Shown here: positions 11,566 to 56,177 of the stretch, piece by piece | Position numbering within the stretch: the stretch's first letter is position 1 | Layout: the number at the start of each line of letters is the position of its first letter | Source of the DNA: Medicago truncatula | Taxonomy: Eukaryota; Streptophyta; Magnoliopsida; Fabales; Fabaceae | Assembly: GCF_003473485.1 (NCBI RefSeq) | Contig: NC_053045.1 | Span: 63,427,994-63,491,993 of the forward strand | Length of the DNA: 64,000 nt | Direction of reading: 5' to 3' | Translations under genes and position numbers: made by a program | Notes under the pieces: generated by a model | The model's input: only the letters and a program-made list of their open reading frames with translations | The model's database searches: none | What the model was told of the DNA's origin: nothing

Positions 11566-14500
11566 TCACTCCAGTTCCTTCAGGAAATCTTCATTGTCAA
11601 CCAACGCCTACACAAAAAAATTAAACATGATATTAGAAACCTATAGGCATTGATGCATTTGTAATGTGGTCGTTCACCGAACGACCGACCACTAAGGTTT
11701 TGTACGGGAGTTTGGAGGAAACACAAACTTACAGTTTTCCATCCATCTGGATCTAAAAAGGAAGTGACCTTTGTGTTAAGGCCAGGAATTGGCCCTGGTT
11801 GCAGAGTGATCTCCCCTCCAAGCTCTTGTGTGACTAGGTTGACTACATCAGCACTCTTGTAGACATCATCAGTACCAATGGCAATCTGTTATAGACACAT
11901 GAAACATATTTTACCATCAATGGTACATAAACACGAAGAAAGCTAGTTTAAGCTTCAAGGTCATATAATTTAACTTATGAACTAACCTGTGCATAAGCAG
12001 TTCCCTTAGAGTATTCGGTGACACCATAATTATATGTCAACTCCAACACAGTTGCGTCGTCCTCCTCTTTATACCCAAGTATAGCAATAGTGTACTGTAG
12101 GACATGCAACAAATTAAAACATGTGTTTCTATTGTAGTTGTATAATCTATGCTTTCTGATTAGAATGTCAGTCACATTGCAAAGAAAAAGGCATGAGGAA
12201 ACATCACCTTGTTCTCAGGATTATCAACCTTCCTCACCACCTTCAAGCCCAAAGCCTATGTAAATATGATCCATAAGAACATATATAGCATCGGTTAATA
12301 AACCACATTTGGTTTAAATAATGCATAATTAAATCATAACTCATCAAATACAATTCTCTGATTCTATTTTGTACATACAACCAAAAGCTATCAAATAGTA
12401 CAAGTACTAATCTTGACTCTTCGCACACAGGAAATCATATCATACTTGTTCTTCCTAGAATATCTTCGATTGTTACCTTTTCATAAAACTTTATGGCACG
12501 TTCTAAATCACCAACGCGAAGACTTATTTGACAGAATGGGTCGTGAACTATAGGTCTTTGGACAAGTGCAAAAGTGTAGCCATCAGGATCCTTCACAAAG
12601 GCAATAACAGTTGTCCCACCTTGAACTGGACCAGCCTCCCTTGTGATATTTCCACCTTTAGCACGAATGTGCTCAACCAATTTGTAAACCTAAAATAAAA
12701 ATTGAAGCAATGTTAATTACAATGTTCATTCTCTTCACAAATCACAAGCTTATGTGAAGTTAGAATACTCTTGTCTTACATCTTGAGTTGCAATTGCAAA
12801 ATGTCCAAAGCCATCTCCAACATCATACGAAGTCACCCCATAATCTAACAATTAATAAAATCGTATAATTAAACAGTTTACAAGAATTCAAAGAAAATAA
12901 ATCCATGTAGTAAAAAAAAAATAGTGATAATTAGGCTAGCAAAAATAACAATAGGAGTTAAATATGTTTTTATTTCTTATAAAATTCATCCATACAAAAA
13001 GTCCTTAGAAAATAGACGATTTTTCAAGTTTAGTCCTATTTTGCTAGACTGAAACACTCATTTTTGTCCAATAAATACAATTCAAATGATAAAAGACTAG
13101 AGAGACATTTGATCTGTTGGGAGAGAAGGTTATAATTCACGATTTTCCGTTTCTCTGCACTTAGTGTATGAGTTTTGTCACTAAGCTCTTTGAAAACACC
13201 CATCTTGTGTAAGTGACTAAAAACAATCACTTTTTGCAACAAAAAAAAAAGTGTTTTAGTCGAGCAAAATGAGTAAACCACCAAATTGGTCGTGTCTTTA
13301 TAAGTCACTTTCAATTTAGTCACTGACTCTATTAATATTTCAAAATAGTCATTGTCTTTGTCAAAAGTTTTTCAATTAAATCTCTTATCATGTGACAAAA
13401 AAAGAAGAGAAAGAAGTCTAATTGAGAAACTTTTGACAATATTTCAAAATAGTCAATGTCTTTGTCAAAAGTTTCTCAATTAAGTCCATATCCATGTGAC
13501 AAAAACATAGAGACGGGGAATTAATTGAGAAACTTTTGACAAAGACACAGACTCTTTTGAAATATTAATAGATTCAGAGACTAATTTGAGAGTCACTTGT
13601 AAAGACATGGACCAAATTGGTGGTTTGCTCCAAGCAAAATAGGGGACTAAAATTGAACAAAATTTATGTAGGACGACTATGTGTTAATTCAAGGTTTAAA
13701 TATGCAGTTTTCTCATTGCAATTTTGGCCTTCTAATAAAAAAATAATAATAATTCATCTATCTTTAGAGAAATGTACTCTTGCCTGTATCCCGAGAAGTC
13801 ATTTGGTTGAGAGAAACTCTCTTCAACCTCAAGGAACTCGGTTCGAGACTCGACACCAAGAAAAATATGCTCTTTTGACCCTCTAACTTTAGGAAAATAT
13901 GTTTTTTTACCCTTTATCTTTAGGGAAATAAGATATTTCGACTCTTTATCTTTACAAAAAGTTGCGATTTTGGCCCCATGTTCTTCTCATCAGCTTTGCA
14001 GCGTTTTATAAAATTAAGTGGTAAAATTTATTATTTTTTTTTTTAAGGGCCAAAATCAAAATTGTTAAGGGATCACAAATGCATTTATGCCTTAATTCAA
14101 TTTATAAAATTTACATATATAGGAACTAAGCTTAAACAGGAACTAAAATAAAAACATAATTAATCTTTTTTTTTTAACAAATCAAAATGATATATATAAT
14201 AAACAACGGTGAATCACCCCACACAAGGCGTGCAGAAAGAGAAACACTTGCAAATATTTACAAAGTGAGAGTCCGACAATTAAAAGCACCAACCAAAACA
14301 ATGAAACTAAATTACACACAAATGCCCATAAATAATGAAGAGAAATAATAAATATAAAAAGGAAATTAAAGGGTGAGTAGCTAAGTAACATACTATATGT
14401 TAATTCAACAGCAAAATGGGAATGTTCATCACCAAATCCAACAAAAGCGTTGGCATATTTCTCCTCAGGAACATCTCTCTGCCTCAAAAGTTTCATCCCA

Positions 14501-31870: not shown

Positions 31871-31879
31871 TTTAAATAA

Positions 31880-32420
31880 GGGTTAAATATATTTTTTATC
31901 CTTATAAAATTGAGGCCTTTTAAATTTAGTCCTTACTTAATTATTTAATAGCTTTTTTAGTCCCTATAAAATCATTTTGCATTTAGTTTTAGTCTATTCT
32001 TAATCCAAATTTGTTTAATTATGCTTAAATTCTTGAATTTTTAAACAATCTTTTGTACACCTATTAAGAACATTACGAAAAGTCCCTCTACAAAATATTA
32101 ACTCAAAATTTGATTTCTACGTTCAGATTTTTGTTACTCTTTTCTTGAACTTTTGTCGTTTAAAAAAATCATATTTAAATCTTCTCCTATTAAAAAAATC
32201 TATTTTTTAGCAAATGAACATTTTATAATGTTCTAAACATGTCTCCTAAAAATCGTTCAAAAATTTAAGAATTCAAGAATAATTAAACAAATTTAGTTTT
32301 TAGAAGGACTAAAATTACATGTTATTTTATTTTTGTAGGGACTAAAAATATTATTAAAATTAAGTAAAGACTAAACTTAGAAGTTTCCAATTTTATACGG
32401 ACCAAAAACATATTTAATCC
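31880..32420. mobile_element. MULE-type MITE, long inverted repeats
   Basis: 541 bp starting GGGTTAAATATATTTTTTAT, with inverted end GGATTAAATATGTTTTTGGT; the arms pair over about 100 bp (AAATTTAGTCCTTACTTAAT). Exact 9-bp duplication TTTAAATAA at 31871-31879 and 32421-32429. This is a very common legume repeat type; degenerate pieces also occur in the glyoxalase intron 2 (about 12956 and 14160). Confidence 0.9.
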
Positions 32421-32790
32421 TTTAAATAATTAACCATTCATTATTTTTTTCATTTTTTTAGAAAGAGACAATTTATTATTAATAAAAGTGACAATAATAA
32501 TTATTTTACATCTGTTCCCTAAAAAAAAAGAAAATTTACATCTATCATGAGCGAATTTAAATTGTTGTTTATTACATATTACATATTTGTACAAATATAT
32601 TGAAATGTTTGCACATTAATGTGATTTCAAACCAGACCCGAACCGGTCTTATCGGGAATCACATTTTGAAACCATTTTTTAATCACGTTTTGGAATCAAA
32701 ACATTCATAAGCACATCATTATCTAGTGATAAATTGTTTATTGGAATAAAGGAACGCCATTAGAACCAAACAAAAGCAATATATTTTTTT

Positions 32791-33045
32791 TAATAAACCA
32801 CTAAATTGATCTCTGTCTTTGTAAGTCACTATCAAATTAATATGTGATGCTATTAATATTTCAGATTACTCCCCTCTTTGTCAAAGTTTATCAATTAGGT
32901 CTCTCATCATGTAACAAAAACATAAAGATAAGGATCTAATCGAAAAACTTTTGGCAAAGACAGAAACTAGATTGAAATATTAATAGAATTAGAGACTAAT
33001 TTAATAATGACTTATAAAAACATAGACTAATTTGGTGGTTTACTC
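32791..33045. mobile_element. MULE-type foldback MITE, relative of 13271-13630
   Basis: Ends TAATAAACCACTAAATTGAT and, inverted, GAGTAAACCACCAAATTAGT; shared internal phrase AGAGACTAATTT. Flanking T-rich 9-mers may be the duplication. Confidence 0.7.
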
Positions 33046-40991: not shown

Positions 40992-41003
40992 TAATATCAA
41001 ATA

Positions 41004-41150
41004 CTTCCTCCGGTCCTATTTACAAGAGAAATTTGACTTTTTAGATACATTGAATAATGTATATATCTAGTCGAGAACCTAAATCAAATACATAAATTAT
41101 TTAATGTATCTAAAAAATAAATTGTTTCTTGTAAATAGGATCAGAGAGAG
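41004..41150. mobile_element. Stowaway-like (Tc1/mariner) MITE
   Basis: 147 bp with ends CTTCCTCCGGTCCTATTTAC and CTCTCTCTGATCCTATTTAC (inverted), flanked by TA on both sides. CTCCCTCCGTTCC-type ends with a TA duplication are the Stowaway hallmark. Confidence 0.85.
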
Positions 41151-42894
41151 TATTTCTCTAAGGGTAATGGTTAAGGATATCAAAAATAGAATTTTTTCAT
41201 TAAAAACAACAACTTTTTGATTTTCATAAAATTAAACATTTCAGTTTTCACCAATTTTTAATACATAATTTCTATATTAATCTTCTTAACTAGTGTGCTT
41301 AGAACATTAGTTAACATTTCACTATCTTTAATTATCTATTTAAAAAAAGGGTTATGTTAACCGGTGCCTAGGCACGGGTTAGCAAAATCTTTAAAGATAT
41401 TAAAAATAAAAAATATGTTTCAGAATAACTAAGGTCGTGTAATAAGTAACAGAGTGACTATATTGTTGTTAAATGAAAATGTCAGAACTGAGAAGCATGT
41501 GAATGTATTCATCAACTTCAATAATACAGTGTTAAATTAGTCACAAGCAGAAGAGCTTGAAGATTAAAAAATGAGACACAATTTGTGGGGGGCTGTGGAG
41601 TAGTGCGTACCCAAAATAGGAAGTAGGAACTGAGTGATCCACTGCTATTGTTGTTAGTGGGGACCACTTCAAAATTCAAACCATGTGAATGTGATGAAGA
41701 CGGTCAATTATTGGGCAATTGCATACAACTCATTCTATCTTTCATTGCTTTCGCATCCAAACAAAAATTCCGGGCACTGCCCTTTTCACGAGAAAGTTAC
41801 TCCGTGTGCTAGTAATTTTGTATGCTTTCTTCTTGTTATAAGTTAAACAGAGGAAGTGCCTTCCTTGTCCAACTCAATATCCAACACATGTTATACGACA
41901 CATATGTTCTTCAACTCGGAACTCACATTTTTAAGATTTTGAACACGCTTGTCCTTTGAGCCACATTTTAAAGGAGATCCAAACCAGGAGGTAATGGGGT
42001 GGTGACGATTTTTACCTTTCCATTCCCATACACTACACCCAAATACTTAATCAATGACCCTATTTATATTCAATGGAGATGAAAAATCTCATCTCATCTC
42101 TATCCCTGATGGTTTGAGTATCACCGCACCATTCACATCTCCGTAGTGGATAACTTTTTTAATAACAAATATTTTTCAACCTCGGACTCAATGTTGCAAT
42201 GTTATTATTCAGAAAATAGATGATAACGATTGATGTTTATGATGATAGAGAAGAGAGAGACCGATTGTGTGAGATGTGGAAGGAGAAGAGAGACAACTTA
42301 GAGAAGTGAGTGTCTTCTAACAGAATGAGACTTTGATTGTGTGAATTAAATAATTATTGTTTGAGTTTCTATTTATATAAAAAAAAATATCCAACTTACA
42401 ATTCAATATAATTCTACTTTATATTTATGATAAACAAGAATGCACCAATTCTTATCAAAGACACTCAAAACAAATAATAGAAAATAAATACTACGTACAA
42501 ATCTTTAGGCATAAATGCATATGAATTAAATCCATTATTAATTAATTAATTTATGAATTGATATAATGTAACTTCCGTGTACTGTGATGTTGACAAATTC
42601 GATATAACACCACCGCATTCACCTGTCGTAGTATCAGCGTTCCATTAACGCAAAAATTATGGACAAGAGAATAAAAAAATAATAACAAAAATAACATAAC
42701 ATAAAAGGACGAAGGAGGACTAGAAAAGTGAAACATTGTTTAGTTGTCGTAGACTTGGTTGTGTTGTGGGTTCTGTCTTCTGAATCTAACTAACAACAAA
42801 CCAAAGAAGCATAGATAGATCTATATCTATCTAAATCTATTAGTACAAGTTACAAAAACGGAACATAGTTTCAGTTTAGTACTATAAGCAAAAT
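41151..42894. other. Spacer and promoter region of the SKS-like gene
   Basis: No gene seen. Degenerate MITE pieces at about 41155-41335. Promoter elements of the downstream gene were not identifiable by eye. Confidence 0.4.
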
Positions 42895-50578: not shown

Positions 50579-53500
50579 ATGGCTGACATAGTGCAATACA
50601 AGCTAGAGCGCATGTTCGACGAGTTCGAAGATCTCGAGCAACGCGGCCTATTCAACAAGCGAGAAATCGCCGAGATTGTTAAACAGAGGCGAAAATTCGA
50701 GTACAGGCTGAAAAGGCCGTGTCCGTTGAAGGCGGATTTTGTAGCGTACATAGACTATGAGACGCAGCTCGATGCACTACGTAGGTTACGGAAGAAGTCG
50801 GTGGCGCGTGAGTTGAAGAAACAAGGGAATAAGAATTTGAAGAAATCGAAATCTGATTTTGCTGGGTTGATTAGGATTATTGATACTTATGAGCTTGCTT
50901 TGAAGCGTTATAAGGGTGATATTCAACTTTGGTTTCGTTATCTTGAGTTTTGTAGGGTTCAAAAAAATGGCAGAATGAAGAAGGTAACTTTTTTCTTTCT
51001 TTCATCACGTTGTTGTCGTCGTTTTTGTTGATATTATTTGTGAAGCAAAGAGAATGTGATTTTGAAAAGAACGGGTATCAGTGCCCTGTTTGGATAAATA
51101 GCTTTATAGCAAATGGTAAAATTAAATTAAATTATCTTTGTATATACTATAAGCTGTTATCATAAGCTATGTTGGAAAACTTATGAAAATAAGCTGAAAA
51201 AAGCTTACGAAAATTGTCATAAGCTGTTTCTATAAGTTTTCCGGAACAGGCTCACAAAACTTATGCCATTAGATAAGCTAAAATAAGCAAATCCTAACAG
51301 GCCTATAGCATAAACACGTATCAGATAAGTACTTATTTTTAAACTGTTTTCATAAGCTGTACTAGAGAGCGTATAATTATAAGTTGAAAACAACTTGGTG
51401 ACTTGTTATAAGTTCTTTCTGTAAGCTCTCTCAAACAGTCTCAGGTTATTATGTCCGTTGATAAGCTCAAATAAGCCAGTTCAAAGAGTCCGTATAGTGT
51501 TGACAATTTAAATTGTTTTGGTGGTACTATGGTAGAGTATGAATGTAGGAAACAAATTACTCAATGAAAGAATAGCTAATGAAAAGAACAGACGTTACAG
51601 GTAAACTTCAGTTAATCAATACGTTTAGGAGGGTGTATTGAATCATGATTTTAAGGGATTTTAGAAGACTTTTTTATAATGAAAAAGTGTTATGGTATTC
51701 AATCAAGACTCTTTTCAATTTAAAAAAAGTCTTGTGTTTTTCAATCAAGATTCTTTGTCATTTTAAAAAAGTCATGTGGTATTCAATCAAGACTCTTAAT
51801 CACTTAAAAAAAGTCTAGTGGTATTCAAAATCATTCAAATTTCGAAGGATTGTTTAATAAATCAGATTTTGATGGATATTGTGGGATTTTCTAGTGAAAT
51901 TTTAGCATGAAAAAGTCTTTCATGAAAACATGAGATTTCTTAAGATTGTTGTTTTTTTTCTTTTAAGATTTTACTATCTCTCCCTCTCTCCTCCCTTCTC
52001 TTACTCTCTCTTTTCCTCTCCTCTCTCTCTCTCCTTCCTTATCTCTCTCTCTCTCTCTCCAGCTCTAGCTCCCCCGTCCAATACACCCTTAAACTTGAGG
52101 TTTTTATAATTCTGCAATAGTTATGCCTTCACTAAACTCATTCCAGCAGGTTTTAGATTATTGAAAGGTGGCCGAGATTAACTTCTAACATGTAGAGCAA
52201 ATAATTCACCTTCATAAGTTCTGCATTGCATTGGCACTAAGATATTTGGATTTGGATCATTTACTTATTGGATTTTTTGAACATTTTGTTTTTGAATTTT
52301 TGCAGGCACTTGCAAAACTTGTTAGGTTGCACCCAAAGGTTCCGGGAGTTTGGATTTATGCTGCAGCTTGGGAGTTTGATCGTAACTTAAATGTTGTGGC
52401 CGCCCGTGCTTTAATGCAGGGAGGTCTCAGAGTTTGCCCAACATCAGAAGATCTTTGGGTGGAGTATCTTCGGATGGAACTCACATACATTAACAAGTTA
52501 AAGGCTAGGAAGGTTGCCTTGGGTGAGGATGAGGGAACTCTTACTCGTGATCCTAGAACCGTGGAAGAAAAACAATGGAGAGATGAAAACAAAGAGTTGT
52601 TTATGACCCTTGATGAAAAAGAGGAAAACGACGTTGCAAATGTTGAACCAGATGAATCAAAGAAGAACAAAGAATTATTTGCTGAGCATGGTATGAACCT
52701 TTTTCGAACTGTTTATGGTGGAGCAATTGAAGCCGTCCCTTCGAGTCTCAATCTTAGAAAGAGATTTTTTGAAATATTGGAGGGGACAGAATTATCACAT
52801 TACGAAGATATGTGCAAGGAGATGCTGAATGACATGAAGAGGGATTTTTCAACTGAACCAGAATTCTGGGACTGGCTTGCAAGACAAGAATGCAATGTTG
52901 AAGCTGTTCACGAGATTAACCAAGAAATTATAATTCCTCAGGTGCAAAAGGCAATTCAGGTACGAATATGTAGGATCTACTGAACCCATTGGGCTCATTA
53001 TCTTTTCCTTGATGTGTTTTATGGTGGCTGAGATTCATGAATGCTTTAACATGAAACTAGGAAAATTCATCATGTTATGGGTTTGTAATTTACTATGGTA
53101 ACCCATTTTTCCGTGTTTAAGTATTGGGATGGTGAGATAGAGGGAGCCACGGCATTTTTCAGTGCCTCCTTTTTTCTTGTGCCTATATTGATCTAACAAA
53201 TCATTGGGTTCTGGCTTTGATCTGTTGCAGGTTTATGAAGAGGCTTTGAAAAGTGTGCCTTCAGGAACTATGTTTAGTTTGTATGCAAATTTTCTAATGG
53301 GTATTGTAGCTCCTAAAGATGAAGAACCCAATATAGATGGCCCATACATATCACATCTCCTGTCAATATATGAAAGGGCTGAAAGCATGGGAATCATCAC
53401 TGATGATCTTGCTTGCAAGCATGTCTCCTTACATTTGCAGTTGAGACATTTGGATGAGGCCAGGAAACTGGTAGCAAAGCTTTGCAGCGGAAAACTTGCA

Positions 53501-56177
53501 GAATCAGTGCAGTTATGGGAATTAAGGGTTTCTATAGAAATTACATGCATTACACAAAGTTCTTTGTTGCCCAGTGATACTGATCTGTCATCCCTTTTCG
53601 AACTCCTTAGACAAATTTTGACCAAATTTCATGTTTCAAAATCAGAGAACTTGTGGCTAAGGGTATGTTGTCACCACTTATCTCTTATTTTTGTTGCCAT
53701 GTCTTGTATCAAATGTGCTCCAATCAAAAGGAATAAACAACATATTTTATAAATTAAACACTAGTGTCAAGTCAATCAACCTCTTGCAAATGCAAGATGT
53801 GACTAATAATAGATCTGTGATGGGTTTAGAACACCTGGTTCTCTTTTATCCCTTGATCATTGGATTTTTGAGCAATTTCCTGCATAGAATTACCTGACTT
53901 ACTTTTTACATATGGTGTCCCAATGCTTTCCCAGTTGAATACTAAATGCATTGTTCTATATTTTTTAGCTTAATTGCACTTTTAACCCCCTAGTCTATCA
54001 ATTGTGATTTTGGCCCTCCACATTTACCCCATTTCTGATTTTCTAACCCCCCCACACCACTCAGATTTTAACTTATATTAGCTGACATGTGATTTTAATG
54101 ACATGTTTCATTCCTATTGGCCAGAGTGGGGCATTTAAAAAAAATATCTAAAACAAAAGTATTAATAATCAAATATCCTCATGTGATTTGTTTTCTGCAA
54201 AACAACAAAAAACCAAAAAATGAAACATTTGAAAGTAGTCCTTTGATAACCAACTCAAGATTCAAGTTGAAGGATATAATGTGAATGAAAGGTTAACGAA
54301 GGCAAGAAGCAAGGTGCTCTCTGCATTGTCTATCAATGAGGTTGATGGAAGAGTGAATTACTCATCCAGTGAAATATATCTATCAATGAGGCTTATGGAA
54401 GAGCGAATTGCTCATCCAGAGAAATATATAGATGAGGGGAAAAGCCCCTAAAGTTAATATTTACCACTCTGTTTTCTCAGACAATGTTGTAGTTGCGTCT
54501 GTTGTGGTTAACTCAACATCAAAAAATACAAAGAAACTGTAGAACCATGTACGTGTGTCGGTCACAACATGAAACACGCTTCCACGGTTCCTTTGCATTC
54601 TTTGTTGCCGAGTTAACCACTTCAAATTCAGCTATAAGATTGTTTGAGAACAACACAGTGGTAAATATTAACTTCAGGAGGAGTAGGCTTTCCCTCATCT
54701 ATATATTTCTCTGGATGAGCAGTCCGCTCTTCTATTAGCCTCATTGATAGACAATGCAAGCTCTTTGTAATGGACTTGTAGGCAATCAAACTTAAGAAAG
54801 CACCTTGCTTCTTTGCCTTCATTAACCGCTCATTCACATCACATCCTTCAACTTCTAAATCTTTAGCTGGTTATCCCAAGACTCTTCCATTGTTGAACAT
54901 TTTTTTTTTTGAAGGATTGTTGAACATTTTTTGTTGTTTTGTAAAAAACAAATCACGCGAAAGTATTTAATTATTAATACTTTATTTTTGTAATATTTTT
55001 TTTTTTAAATATTCACTCTGGCCAAAAAGAACGAAACACATTTCATTCAAATGAGACATCAGCTAATCCAAAGTCAAAATCTGAGTGGGGGATAAAAAAT
55101 CAGAAAGAGATCAAATGTGGGGGGCCAAAATCGCTCAATTGAGGGCAATTAAACCTTTTTTTAAGTTGGATTTTGATTAATTTTTCTTGCATTAACAAAG
55201 TATTTTCCATTTGAAACCAAAGTTGGTGTTTGTTTCTCGATGTCTTATTTTCTATAAAACAATAAATTTCTTTCTGCCTTGACTTGTATGTATTTAAAGA
55301 TGATGCATCTTCATTATGTTGAAAATATTTGTGTTTACCCCCAAAATTCTGTTATTAATTATGCATGCATTTTGAATTTATTCACTTCAGCCTGAATTTA
55401 GTTTTCCTTCACCTGAATTATTTTGTATAGTGTTAAAAGTTTGAAGTTCCTAAATTTGTTCATCTCTCTAACTGTAACTCAATACAGGCCCTTAAATTTT
55501 ATGCAAGTCATAGACGATACTTTGATAAGCTGGTGGAGATTTCTGTTCTTTCTTTGGCTAGAGATGGTGGCAGTGAAAGTGGATTTTCGCTTTCATCTGC
55601 CATTGTTAGTTTTATACTTCAAAAGGATGGAATTCACAAGGCCAGAGATATCTATAAAAGGTATGAGCAGTGGAATCGGTGCAGGGTATTATTTTCCATA
55701 GTATGCTGTATGGGATTTCTATCTTGTATCTGTTATAATTCCTCAACTATTTTACATTGCAGATATCTAGCTTTACCGCATCCCGGCCTTGCATTATATA
55801 GGAAGTGCATTGAGCTGGAAGCAAACCTTGCATCAACAGGAGATAAAAATAGTCTCGTAAATGCCAGGAAATTATATGAATCTGCACTAGCAACTTATGA
55901 CCAAAATGTTGACTTTTGGCAAGACTACTATCGCATGGAGGTCAAGGTATCAAAATACATGTATTTAATTGGTCATGTATTTAGTTTTTAATTACTTGTT
56001 GGATTTCTTTTGTACCTGGATAGTTTATTAATCAAATCAAATAATGCATATATACCTTTTTATTGGGTTTTGATCTTGCAGATGGGAACATCACAACAAG
56101 CTACCGCTGTCTATTGGCGTGCTAGGAAAATACTTAAAGATGCCAGCGAATTTATTGCTTCCCCAGATTTGCGATAA
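50579..56177 (+). CDS. UTP6: U3 snoRNA-associated protein 6 (UTP6) homologue
   Basis: Exons 50579-50983, 52306-52959, 53231-53662, 55488-55660, 55763-55946, 56082-56177; 1944 nt, 647 aa. UTP6 is part of the small-subunit processome in the nucleolus and acts in 18S rRNA maturation. The N-terminal UTP6 domain is clear (MADIVQYKLERMFDEFEDLE, LFNKREIAEIVKQRR), followed by HAT-type helical repeats (LWFRYLEFCR, VWIYAAAWEFDRNLNVVAAR, LWVEYLRMEL, LYANFLMGI, VDFWQDYYRMEV, AVYWRARKIL). The start is the only good ATG upstream of the conserved domain. A telo-box-like motif just upstream fits co-regulation with ribosome biogenesis. Intron 1 (1.3 kb) and intron 3 (1.8 kb) contain transposons; the intron 3 insert is a 1.2-kb inverted repeat. 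Confidence 0.95.
51083..51303. mobile_element. Probable MITE in UTP6 intron 1
   Basis: CCCTGTTTGGATAAATAGC at the left is roughly inverted at the right (GCAAATCCTAACAGGCC). Repeated ATAAGCT phrases inside. No clean target duplication. Confidence 0.45.
51628..52088. mobile_element. PIF/Harbinger-like MITE in UTP6 intron 1
   Basis: Ends GGAGGGTGTATTG and, inverted, GGGTGTATTGGA, with TTA at 51625-51627 and 52089-52091. Inside are three to four copies of a roughly 43-bp unit (GGTATTCAATCAAGACTCTT...AAAAAAGTC, about 51690-51830) and a CT microsatellite (about 51970-52060). Confidence 0.75.
53970..55153. mobile_element. Foldback transposon in UTP6 intron 3 with captured GAUT fragment
   Basis: The 1.18-kb insert is one large inverted repeat: arm 53970 to about 54550 pairs with about 54590 to 55153, leaving a loop of about 40 bp. 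Outer parts carry transposon-like ends (TTAATTGCACTTTTAACCCC; inverted TTTAATTGCCCTCAATTGAG). Inner parts derive from a galacturonosyltransferase gene: the right arm, read on the minus strand, encodes KKQGAFLSLIAYKSITKS, LHCLSMRLIEER, HPEKYIDEGKPTPPEVN and NSATKNAKEPWKRV, matching the segment before the GT8 domain of GAUT proteins. The left arm has a later 50-bp tandem duplication (54330-54379, 54380-54429). Arms agree at roughly four of five positions by eye. The superfamily (Pack-MULE-like) is inferred. Confidence 0.8.

Follow-up and report, generated by a model that had tools for sequence, protein, structure and literature searches.

A palindrome in a UTP6 intron of Medicago truncatula as the probable relic of a Mutator-like transposon with a galacturonosyltransferase exon fragment in both arms

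Introduction

Why does an intron of the UTP6 gene of Medicago truncatula contain a palindrome of 1189 bp that carries a fragment of a galacturonosyltransferase (GAUT) gene in each of its arms? The structure lies in the window analyzed here, a 64-kb stretch of DNA at C4:63427994-63491993. An earlier note on this window had read it as a hairpin that is transcribed with UTP6, may feed DICER-LIKE enzymes and may thereby affect a GAUT gene. Our analysis points to a different origin. The palindrome is very probably an old transposon copy that no longer moves, from a non-autonomous Mutator-like lineage which captured part of a GAUT exon and bears it in inverted duplicate within extended terminal inverted repeats (TIRs); the copy has decayed in the UTP6 intron. 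Hence, what appears to be a silencer built into an intron can be explained through transposon anatomy. The note was right about the intronic hairpin and the capture of GAUT sequence, and missed the mobile-element lineage with its several copies. Genome searches covered 429,922,655 bases in 42 contigs. Positions given without a contig name are those of the window.

Structure of the element and its host intron

The host intron (GT...AG, 1825 bp, plus strand) extends from 53663 to 55487, as delimited by eye from reading frames and splice dinucleotides, and 65% of it consists of the element. The upstream exon at 53231-53662 on the plus strand belongs to UTP6_C (PF24892, E 3e-9), and no second match to it was found in the genome. 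Pfam supported this family on both sides of the element, at 53234-53662 (3e-9) and at 55764-55946 (2.8e-4, below the curated cut-off). The palindromic nature of the intervening DNA was recovered in three ways. Self-BLAST against its own minus strand gave 828 identities out of 1181 (70%, gaps counted), with position 54006 pairing with 55132 at the outer edge. The genome search recovered the inverted match at E = 2.5e-169. The predicted RNA fold reached -537.6 kcal/mol compared to -253.0 +/- 9.2 in 60 dinucleotide shuffles (z = -31); 431 of its 461 pairs fall within a single hairpin, the longest unbroken stems of which comprise 34, 22 and 18 pairs. The inverted repeat within a UTP6 intron that the note described is confirmed.

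The element, probably a Pack-MULE-like foldback (MULE, Mutator-like element), occupies 53967-55155, has its end motif at both ends and is an inverted repeat over nearly its full length. The limits proposed previously (53970-55153) deviate from these motif-defined ends by at most 3 bases. The earlier figures of 570 bp for the arms and 40 bp for the loop were roughly right; the arms measure about 590 bp, and 23 nt separate the innermost arms. The left terminal and subterminal inverted repeat (53967-54236, plus strand) begins with AGCTTAATTGCACTTTTAACCCC and contains the motif match at 53970-53989. It is followed by the left-arm GAUT fragment (54237-54550), which is broken by indels, lies in sense orientation on the plus strand with the 5' side of the gene pointing outward, and includes a 50-bp tandem duplication at 54329-54428 (plus strand, direct repeat, 90%). 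The 23 nt of the palindrome centre (54551-54573) lie between the innermost arms at 54474-54550 and 54574-54650. The right-arm GAUT fragment (54556-54885) is on the minus strand, as is the right terminal and subterminal inverted repeat (54886-55155), which finishes with ...GCAATTAAACC and has a deletion close to its tip. Left and right terminal repeats share 76% identity over 249 columns.

End motif and transposon identity

The ends of the element (GGYTTAATTGCACTTTTGG...) are those of a family that has about 2,900 end sites in the genome. Allowing up to 3 mismatches, the 21-base motif TTTAATTGCACTTTTGGCCCC was found at 1464 forward and 1462 reverse sites, compared to 1 and 2 sites for the reversed motif used as a control. 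The motif is present at either end of the window element; at the right end a deletion follows immediately inside it. Short MITE-like elements (MITE, miniature inverted-repeat transposable element) share this motif.

Target site duplications (TSDs) of this family are mostly 9 bp long in a sample of 15 inverted motif pairs, which is not random since 13 pairs were picked from the listed sites for closely spaced hits and supplemented by L015 and L016, which came from the search with the element. Perfect 9-bp duplications were present in 5 out of the 15 pairs, directly outside the three bases preceding TTAATTG, and 7 further pairs matched in 8 of 9 positions, one of these with only 8 readable bases. 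The remaining 3 gave no clear result by script: L059 lies in a T run, L060 has none, and L066/L067, which the script misread, matched in 9 of 9 positions by eye. Long TIRs together with 9-bp TSDs are features of the Mutator superfamily. A TSD of 9 nt has been called typical of MULEs (PMC4486113). From its sequence, the window element is therefore most likely a non-autonomous transposon of the Mutator superfamily, with the arms representing extended TIRs.

A further observation concerns C2:8691314-8709408, where motif matches recur every ~4.3 kb (8691314, 8695671, 8700004). This suggests a tandem array containing 1.55-kb elements of the same TIR family.

The captured GAUT exon and its nearest donor

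A genome search for the donor gene, as proposed in the note, identified C7:25560429-25560779 as the best gene match with 80% identity over 351 columns. This match sits in a 417-codon exon with a Glyco_transf_8 domain (1.4e-54) and a GAUT_1 hit below the cut-off (0.069). The next gene, C6:6070656-6071120, shares just 70% identity with the C7 stretch, which makes the C7 gene the nearest donor found. The C7 gene is putatively GAUT9-like. No PDB chain matched the donor exon at E values up to 1e-10. Compared to the C7 gene, the left-arm fragment is 71% identical over 341 columns and the right-arm fragment 80% over 350 columns. The window copy thus keeps about 350 bp of the GAUT exon per arm, broken by indels. 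In the related elements described below the captured stretch corresponds to approximately C7:25560320 to 25560780, i.e. about 460 bp. Since it lies within one exon, DNA-based and RNA-based capture are indistinguishable.

The presence of GAUT sequence in both arms, as claimed in the note, is borne out by these matches. GAUT homology of 54262-54860, which the note had named as one test of its reading, is present in the DNA search and falls within one exon of the C7 GAUT gene. In our own reading of the sequence and of the arm alignment, the peptide HPEKYIDEGK is readable in both arms. NSATKNAKEPWK, which had also been assigned to both, is intact only in the right arm (minus reading), and its left copy is degraded. 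A GAUT gene in place was considered and rejected, because an open GAUT frame is lacking: the single minus frame of 54262-54860 that was translated contains 16 stops.

Related elements and the origin of the inversion

At least five loci carry the GAUT fragment together with related subterminal repeats, and in all of them the arrangement is inverted; these counts are lower bounds of the genome searches. Besides the window element, inverted GAUT arms are found in C3a (approximately C3:54910239-54913214) and in the C8 element (approximately C8:45583079-45584319). The C6 element (approximately C6:4114624-4115390) has the same inverted arrangement with a truncated left arm. C3b is a 6.7-kb element (approximately C3:49246146-49252857) that carries only the 3' part of the fragment, at both ends. 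Apart from genes, no single-arm GAUT copy was found among the matches listed.

Seven long arms and the C7 gene were used for an arm tree, from which the short left fragment of the C6 element was excluded. The model chosen for the free tree by the Bayesian information criterion was TN+F+G4. All seven arms cluster in a single clade that leaves the C7 GAUT gene outside (ultrafast bootstrap 95). In the best tree the arms of one element are not mutual closest relatives, and the left arm of the window element pairs with the right arm of the C6 element (77). A 7-bp deletion is common to both window arms and the right C6 arm, and a 4-bp and a 1-bp deletion are common to both arms of C3a and both arms of the C8 element. 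By these shared indels, four of the five elements are split into two subfamilies, window/C6 and C3a/C8. In the former, the 5' side of the GAUT fragment points toward the TIR and the 3' side toward the centre, so that the arms join at the 3' side. In the latter, the 3' side points toward the TIR and the arms join at the 5' side. Because the position at which the arms join thus differs between the subfamilies, inverted pairing probably arose at least twice.

We propose that about 460 bp were captured once, from a single exon of the GAUT gene on C7 or of a gene closely related to it. Inverted dimers would then have formed at least twice, with different breakpoints, and would have spread each time. 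The window copy would then have reached the UTP6 intron by transposition. There it is probably removed with the intron at splicing; it has decayed without visible constraint and is presumably inert with respect to GAUT.

Two of the related elements contain additional sequence. Between the GAUT arms of C3a a second inverted pair is located at C3:54911276-54912243 (974 columns, 84.6%). It has coiled-coil-looking reading frames without a Pfam family above the cut-off, and resembles C4:24641677-24642678, C5:271469-271994 and C8:26130084-26130174. No donor gene for this pair was identified among these resembling places. According to self-alignment, the interior of C3b consists of alternating inverted copies of an FBD-domain stretch, in which three stop-to-stop frames score above the PF08387 cut-off. 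All three presumed captured fragments encountered here (GAUT, FBD domain and coiled coil) are thus inverted.

Decay of the arms

Differences between arms are distributed almost evenly over the donor codon positions. For the 21 arm pairs they amount to 523 out of 2558, 477 out of 2519 and 578 out of 2500 at positions 1, 2 and 3, i.e. 0.204, 0.189 and 0.231 per site. This is the pattern of non-coding DNA, and the arms decay without codon constraint. The arm divergence of about 20% given in the note was an underestimate: between the GAUT parts of the window arms, 233 of 312 ungapped columns are identical (75%, Kimura two-parameter distance, K2P, 0.317), and many indels have to be added. The old age that the note had attributed to the hairpin agrees with this strong divergence. 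K2P distances to the donor are 0.192 for the right arm and 0.362 for the left arm. Identity is 75% between the two arms but 83% between the right arm and the donor, which indicates that nothing has kept the whole duplex intact. Private changes number 49 in the left and 19 in the right arm (2.6x, p = 0.0004), although both are located in the same intron. Changes of the type C>T and G>A were counted at 73 of 843 GC sites compared to 60 reverse changes at 1494 AT sites. Such an excess is also expected from ordinary mutation bias, and the 16 CG sites are too few for an analysis of context. Taken from the sequence, these patterns suggest little sign that the hairpin has been retained for a silencing role.

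Several observations weigh against an old transposon copy with a GAUT exon from the C7 gene. Flanked by T-rich sequence, the window copy has a TSD that matches in only 5 of 9 positions at the motif-defined ends (by eye) and at best in 7 of 9, the latter only with shifted ends. A paralogous empty site is lacking, since the UTP6 exon is single-copy in the genome. MULE transposase domains are abundant (150 out of 150 scored candidates matched, of 923), and none was tied to these TIRs. The arms differ from the C7 gene at 35 near-fixed sites, of which 25 are third codon positions. Polarised by the C6 gene, 11 of these appear to have changed in the C7 gene and 12 on the side of the arms, with 12 unclear. 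Hence, either the capture dates far back or, as the sequences would allow, the actual donor may be a lost relative of the C7 gene. Resolution within the arm tree is weak, with support values of 63 for grouping the window and C6 arms and 75 for C3a and C8, and an approximately unbiased test under TPM2u+G4 did not reject pairing of arms within elements (p = 0.14). Among the diagnostic deletions, larger gaps in the left arm of C3a and the right arm of the C8 element overlap the 7-bp site, and one in the right C6 arm overlaps the second site. Finally, a run of 30 identical columns between the window arms was reached in just 0.9% of 5000 permutations (p ~0.009), compared to p values from 0.21 to 0.98 in the four other pairs tested, and is at odds with plain decay. 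This long run could result from the left-arm tandem duplication of 50 bp or from local conversion. The unbroken 34-pair stem (54407-54440/54690-54723; permutation p ~0.01) in arms otherwise diverged by 25% may represent a conversion tract linked to this duplication.

Alternative explanations

The note's own proposal, a silencer similar to Mu killer, implies in the form considered here that UTP6 transcription yields a hairpin RNA which is processed by DICER-LIKE enzymes into small interfering RNAs (siRNAs) from the right arm that repress GAUT. It is in line with this proposal that UTP6 transcripts contain the right-arm fragment in antisense orientation to GAUT, that the fold is very stable, and that the arms share one identical stretch whose length exceeds chance expectation. 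Sequence matches to the donor also exceed the background. Among the GAUT-sense 21-mers (minus strand), 107 match the donor gene, 9 of them exactly, 27 with one and 71 with two mismatches, and the longest exact match to the GAUT gene has 29 nt (54737-54765, minus strand), whereas 20 random stretches of the window reach 3-5 mismatches at best. In the right arm, 32 out of 563 windows combine at most 2 mismatches to GAUT exon 2 with at most 2 unpaired bases; a control with the exon read backwards gave 4 mismatches at best. Nevertheless, not one of the 563 windows of 21 nt combines an exact match to GAUT exon 2 with at most 4 unpaired bases, and the arms diverge freely from one another. In addition, intronic RNA is normally spliced out and degraded. 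Such a silencer is conceivable in principle but gains no support from the way the arms evolved, and on balance we regard it as very unlikely. A microRNA gene born by inverted duplication of its target GAUT would share the inverted gene fragment and could draw on the unbroken stems of up to 34 pairs, but no Rfam family was found in 53600-55600 at E values up to 1, the arms are part of a transposon lineage with several copies, and the longest stem (54407-54440/54690-54723) lies apart from the 29-nt match, which falls outside the best-paired part of the predicted hairpin. This makes a microRNA origin highly improbable. A broader proposal holds that the lineage habitually inverts its captures and so generates gene-directed hairpins, of which the UTP6 copy still makes small RNAs touching GAUT mRNA. 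We consider it unlikely as a whole. If it were true, the UTP6 copy would be an example that came to lie under a steady promoter, and a lineage with such a habit would be a natural source of candidate siRNA and proto-microRNA loci.

Two further explanations concern the insertion itself and its local effects. Separate insertion of two elements into this intron, in head-to-head orientation, would account for the unequal numbers of private changes, as though the histories of the arms differed, for the grouping of the left window arm with the right C6 arm rather than with its partner, and for the lack of a clear TSD. However, the 7-bp deletion of the subfamily is present in both window arms, these arms join at one and the same position of the fragment, and an inverted arrangement is also seen in the remaining four elements with GAUT sequence. 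Such a double insertion is improbable. A cis-acting role of the inverted repeat, in which 24-nt siRNAs would direct methylation of the intron and slightly modulate how UTP6 is transcribed, spliced or looped in chromatin, is less likely than not. The hairpin structure, the location within a gene and the end motif shared with short MITE-like elements speak in its favor, and MITE-type repeats near genes of Arabidopsis and sunflower provide a precedent (PMC12595863). The C>T excess gives it little help for the reasons stated above. This role is compatible with a decayed transposon copy and does not exclude it; local production of 24-nt siRNAs and methylation at the relic are plausible.

Relation to known systems

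MULEs acquire gene sequences, and acquired sequence can enter extended TIRs (Ferguson and Jiang 2012, PMC3310237). Like Pack-MULEs, the window element is of Mutator type, lacks its own transposase, belongs to a family with 9-bp TSDs and carries a fragment of a host exon. It differs from Pack-MULEs in being nearly one whole palindrome and in the inversion of the fragment in two polarities among copies. Foldback MULEs, MuTAnT in M. truncatula and FARE in Arabidopsis, also have long TIRs that fold nearly to the centre, a 9-nt TSD and a frequent location near genes (PMC4486113). The TIR of MuTAnT is a different one (GGGGTTTGCTAGAACA; PMC4486113), and the copies seen here lie outside TA microsatellites. 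The term 'captur' does not occur in the main text of that paper. In the DNA transposon Turmoil-1 of C. elegans, two host coding fragments are found inside the inverted terminal repeats, an arrangement shared with the window element, although Turmoil-1 is an animal element (PMC2572040).

Mu killer of maize likewise holds a coding segment, together with TIR sequence, as an inverted duplicate. In contrast to the window element, whose candidate target is a host gene and whose arms have diverged by ~25%, it targets mudrA and its silencing effect has been demonstrated (PMC3440606). According to a review, captured sequences in maize are sources of siRNAs able to affect donor genes (PMC13317346), and inverted repeats near genes have been described to yield 24-nt siRNAs and to alter chromatin loops in a review on MITEs (PMC12595863). 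The window element resembles such MITE insertions as an inverted-repeat copy of a DNA transposon within a gene. It has been suggested that divergence of the TIRs may deprive an element of its ability to fold back and serve as a source of siRNAs (PMC4858842).

Text searches for three TIR 16-mers of the element gave no occurrence in the literature, and the main text of a Pack-TYPE survey (PMC8903248) does not mention Medicago. Among the papers listed in our literature searches there was no report of GAUT capture by a transposon, although this is no proof that such a report is lacking. The window element is of an ordinary kind, most probably a decayed Pack-MULE or foldback relic, and the recurrent inversion is its odd feature. 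Copies of one captured exon in two polarities and of different ages provide material for studying how captures become inverted repeats. If small RNAs arose from the element, it would link gene capture by transposons to the birth of gene-targeting hairpins.

Other palindromes in the window

Four further palindromic stretches were found in the same 64 kb, at 13271-13630, 31878-32422, 32794-33042 and 40999-41155. Their alignments span 157-557 columns with 71-76% identity between the arms. Hairpins as such are therefore not rare in this region.

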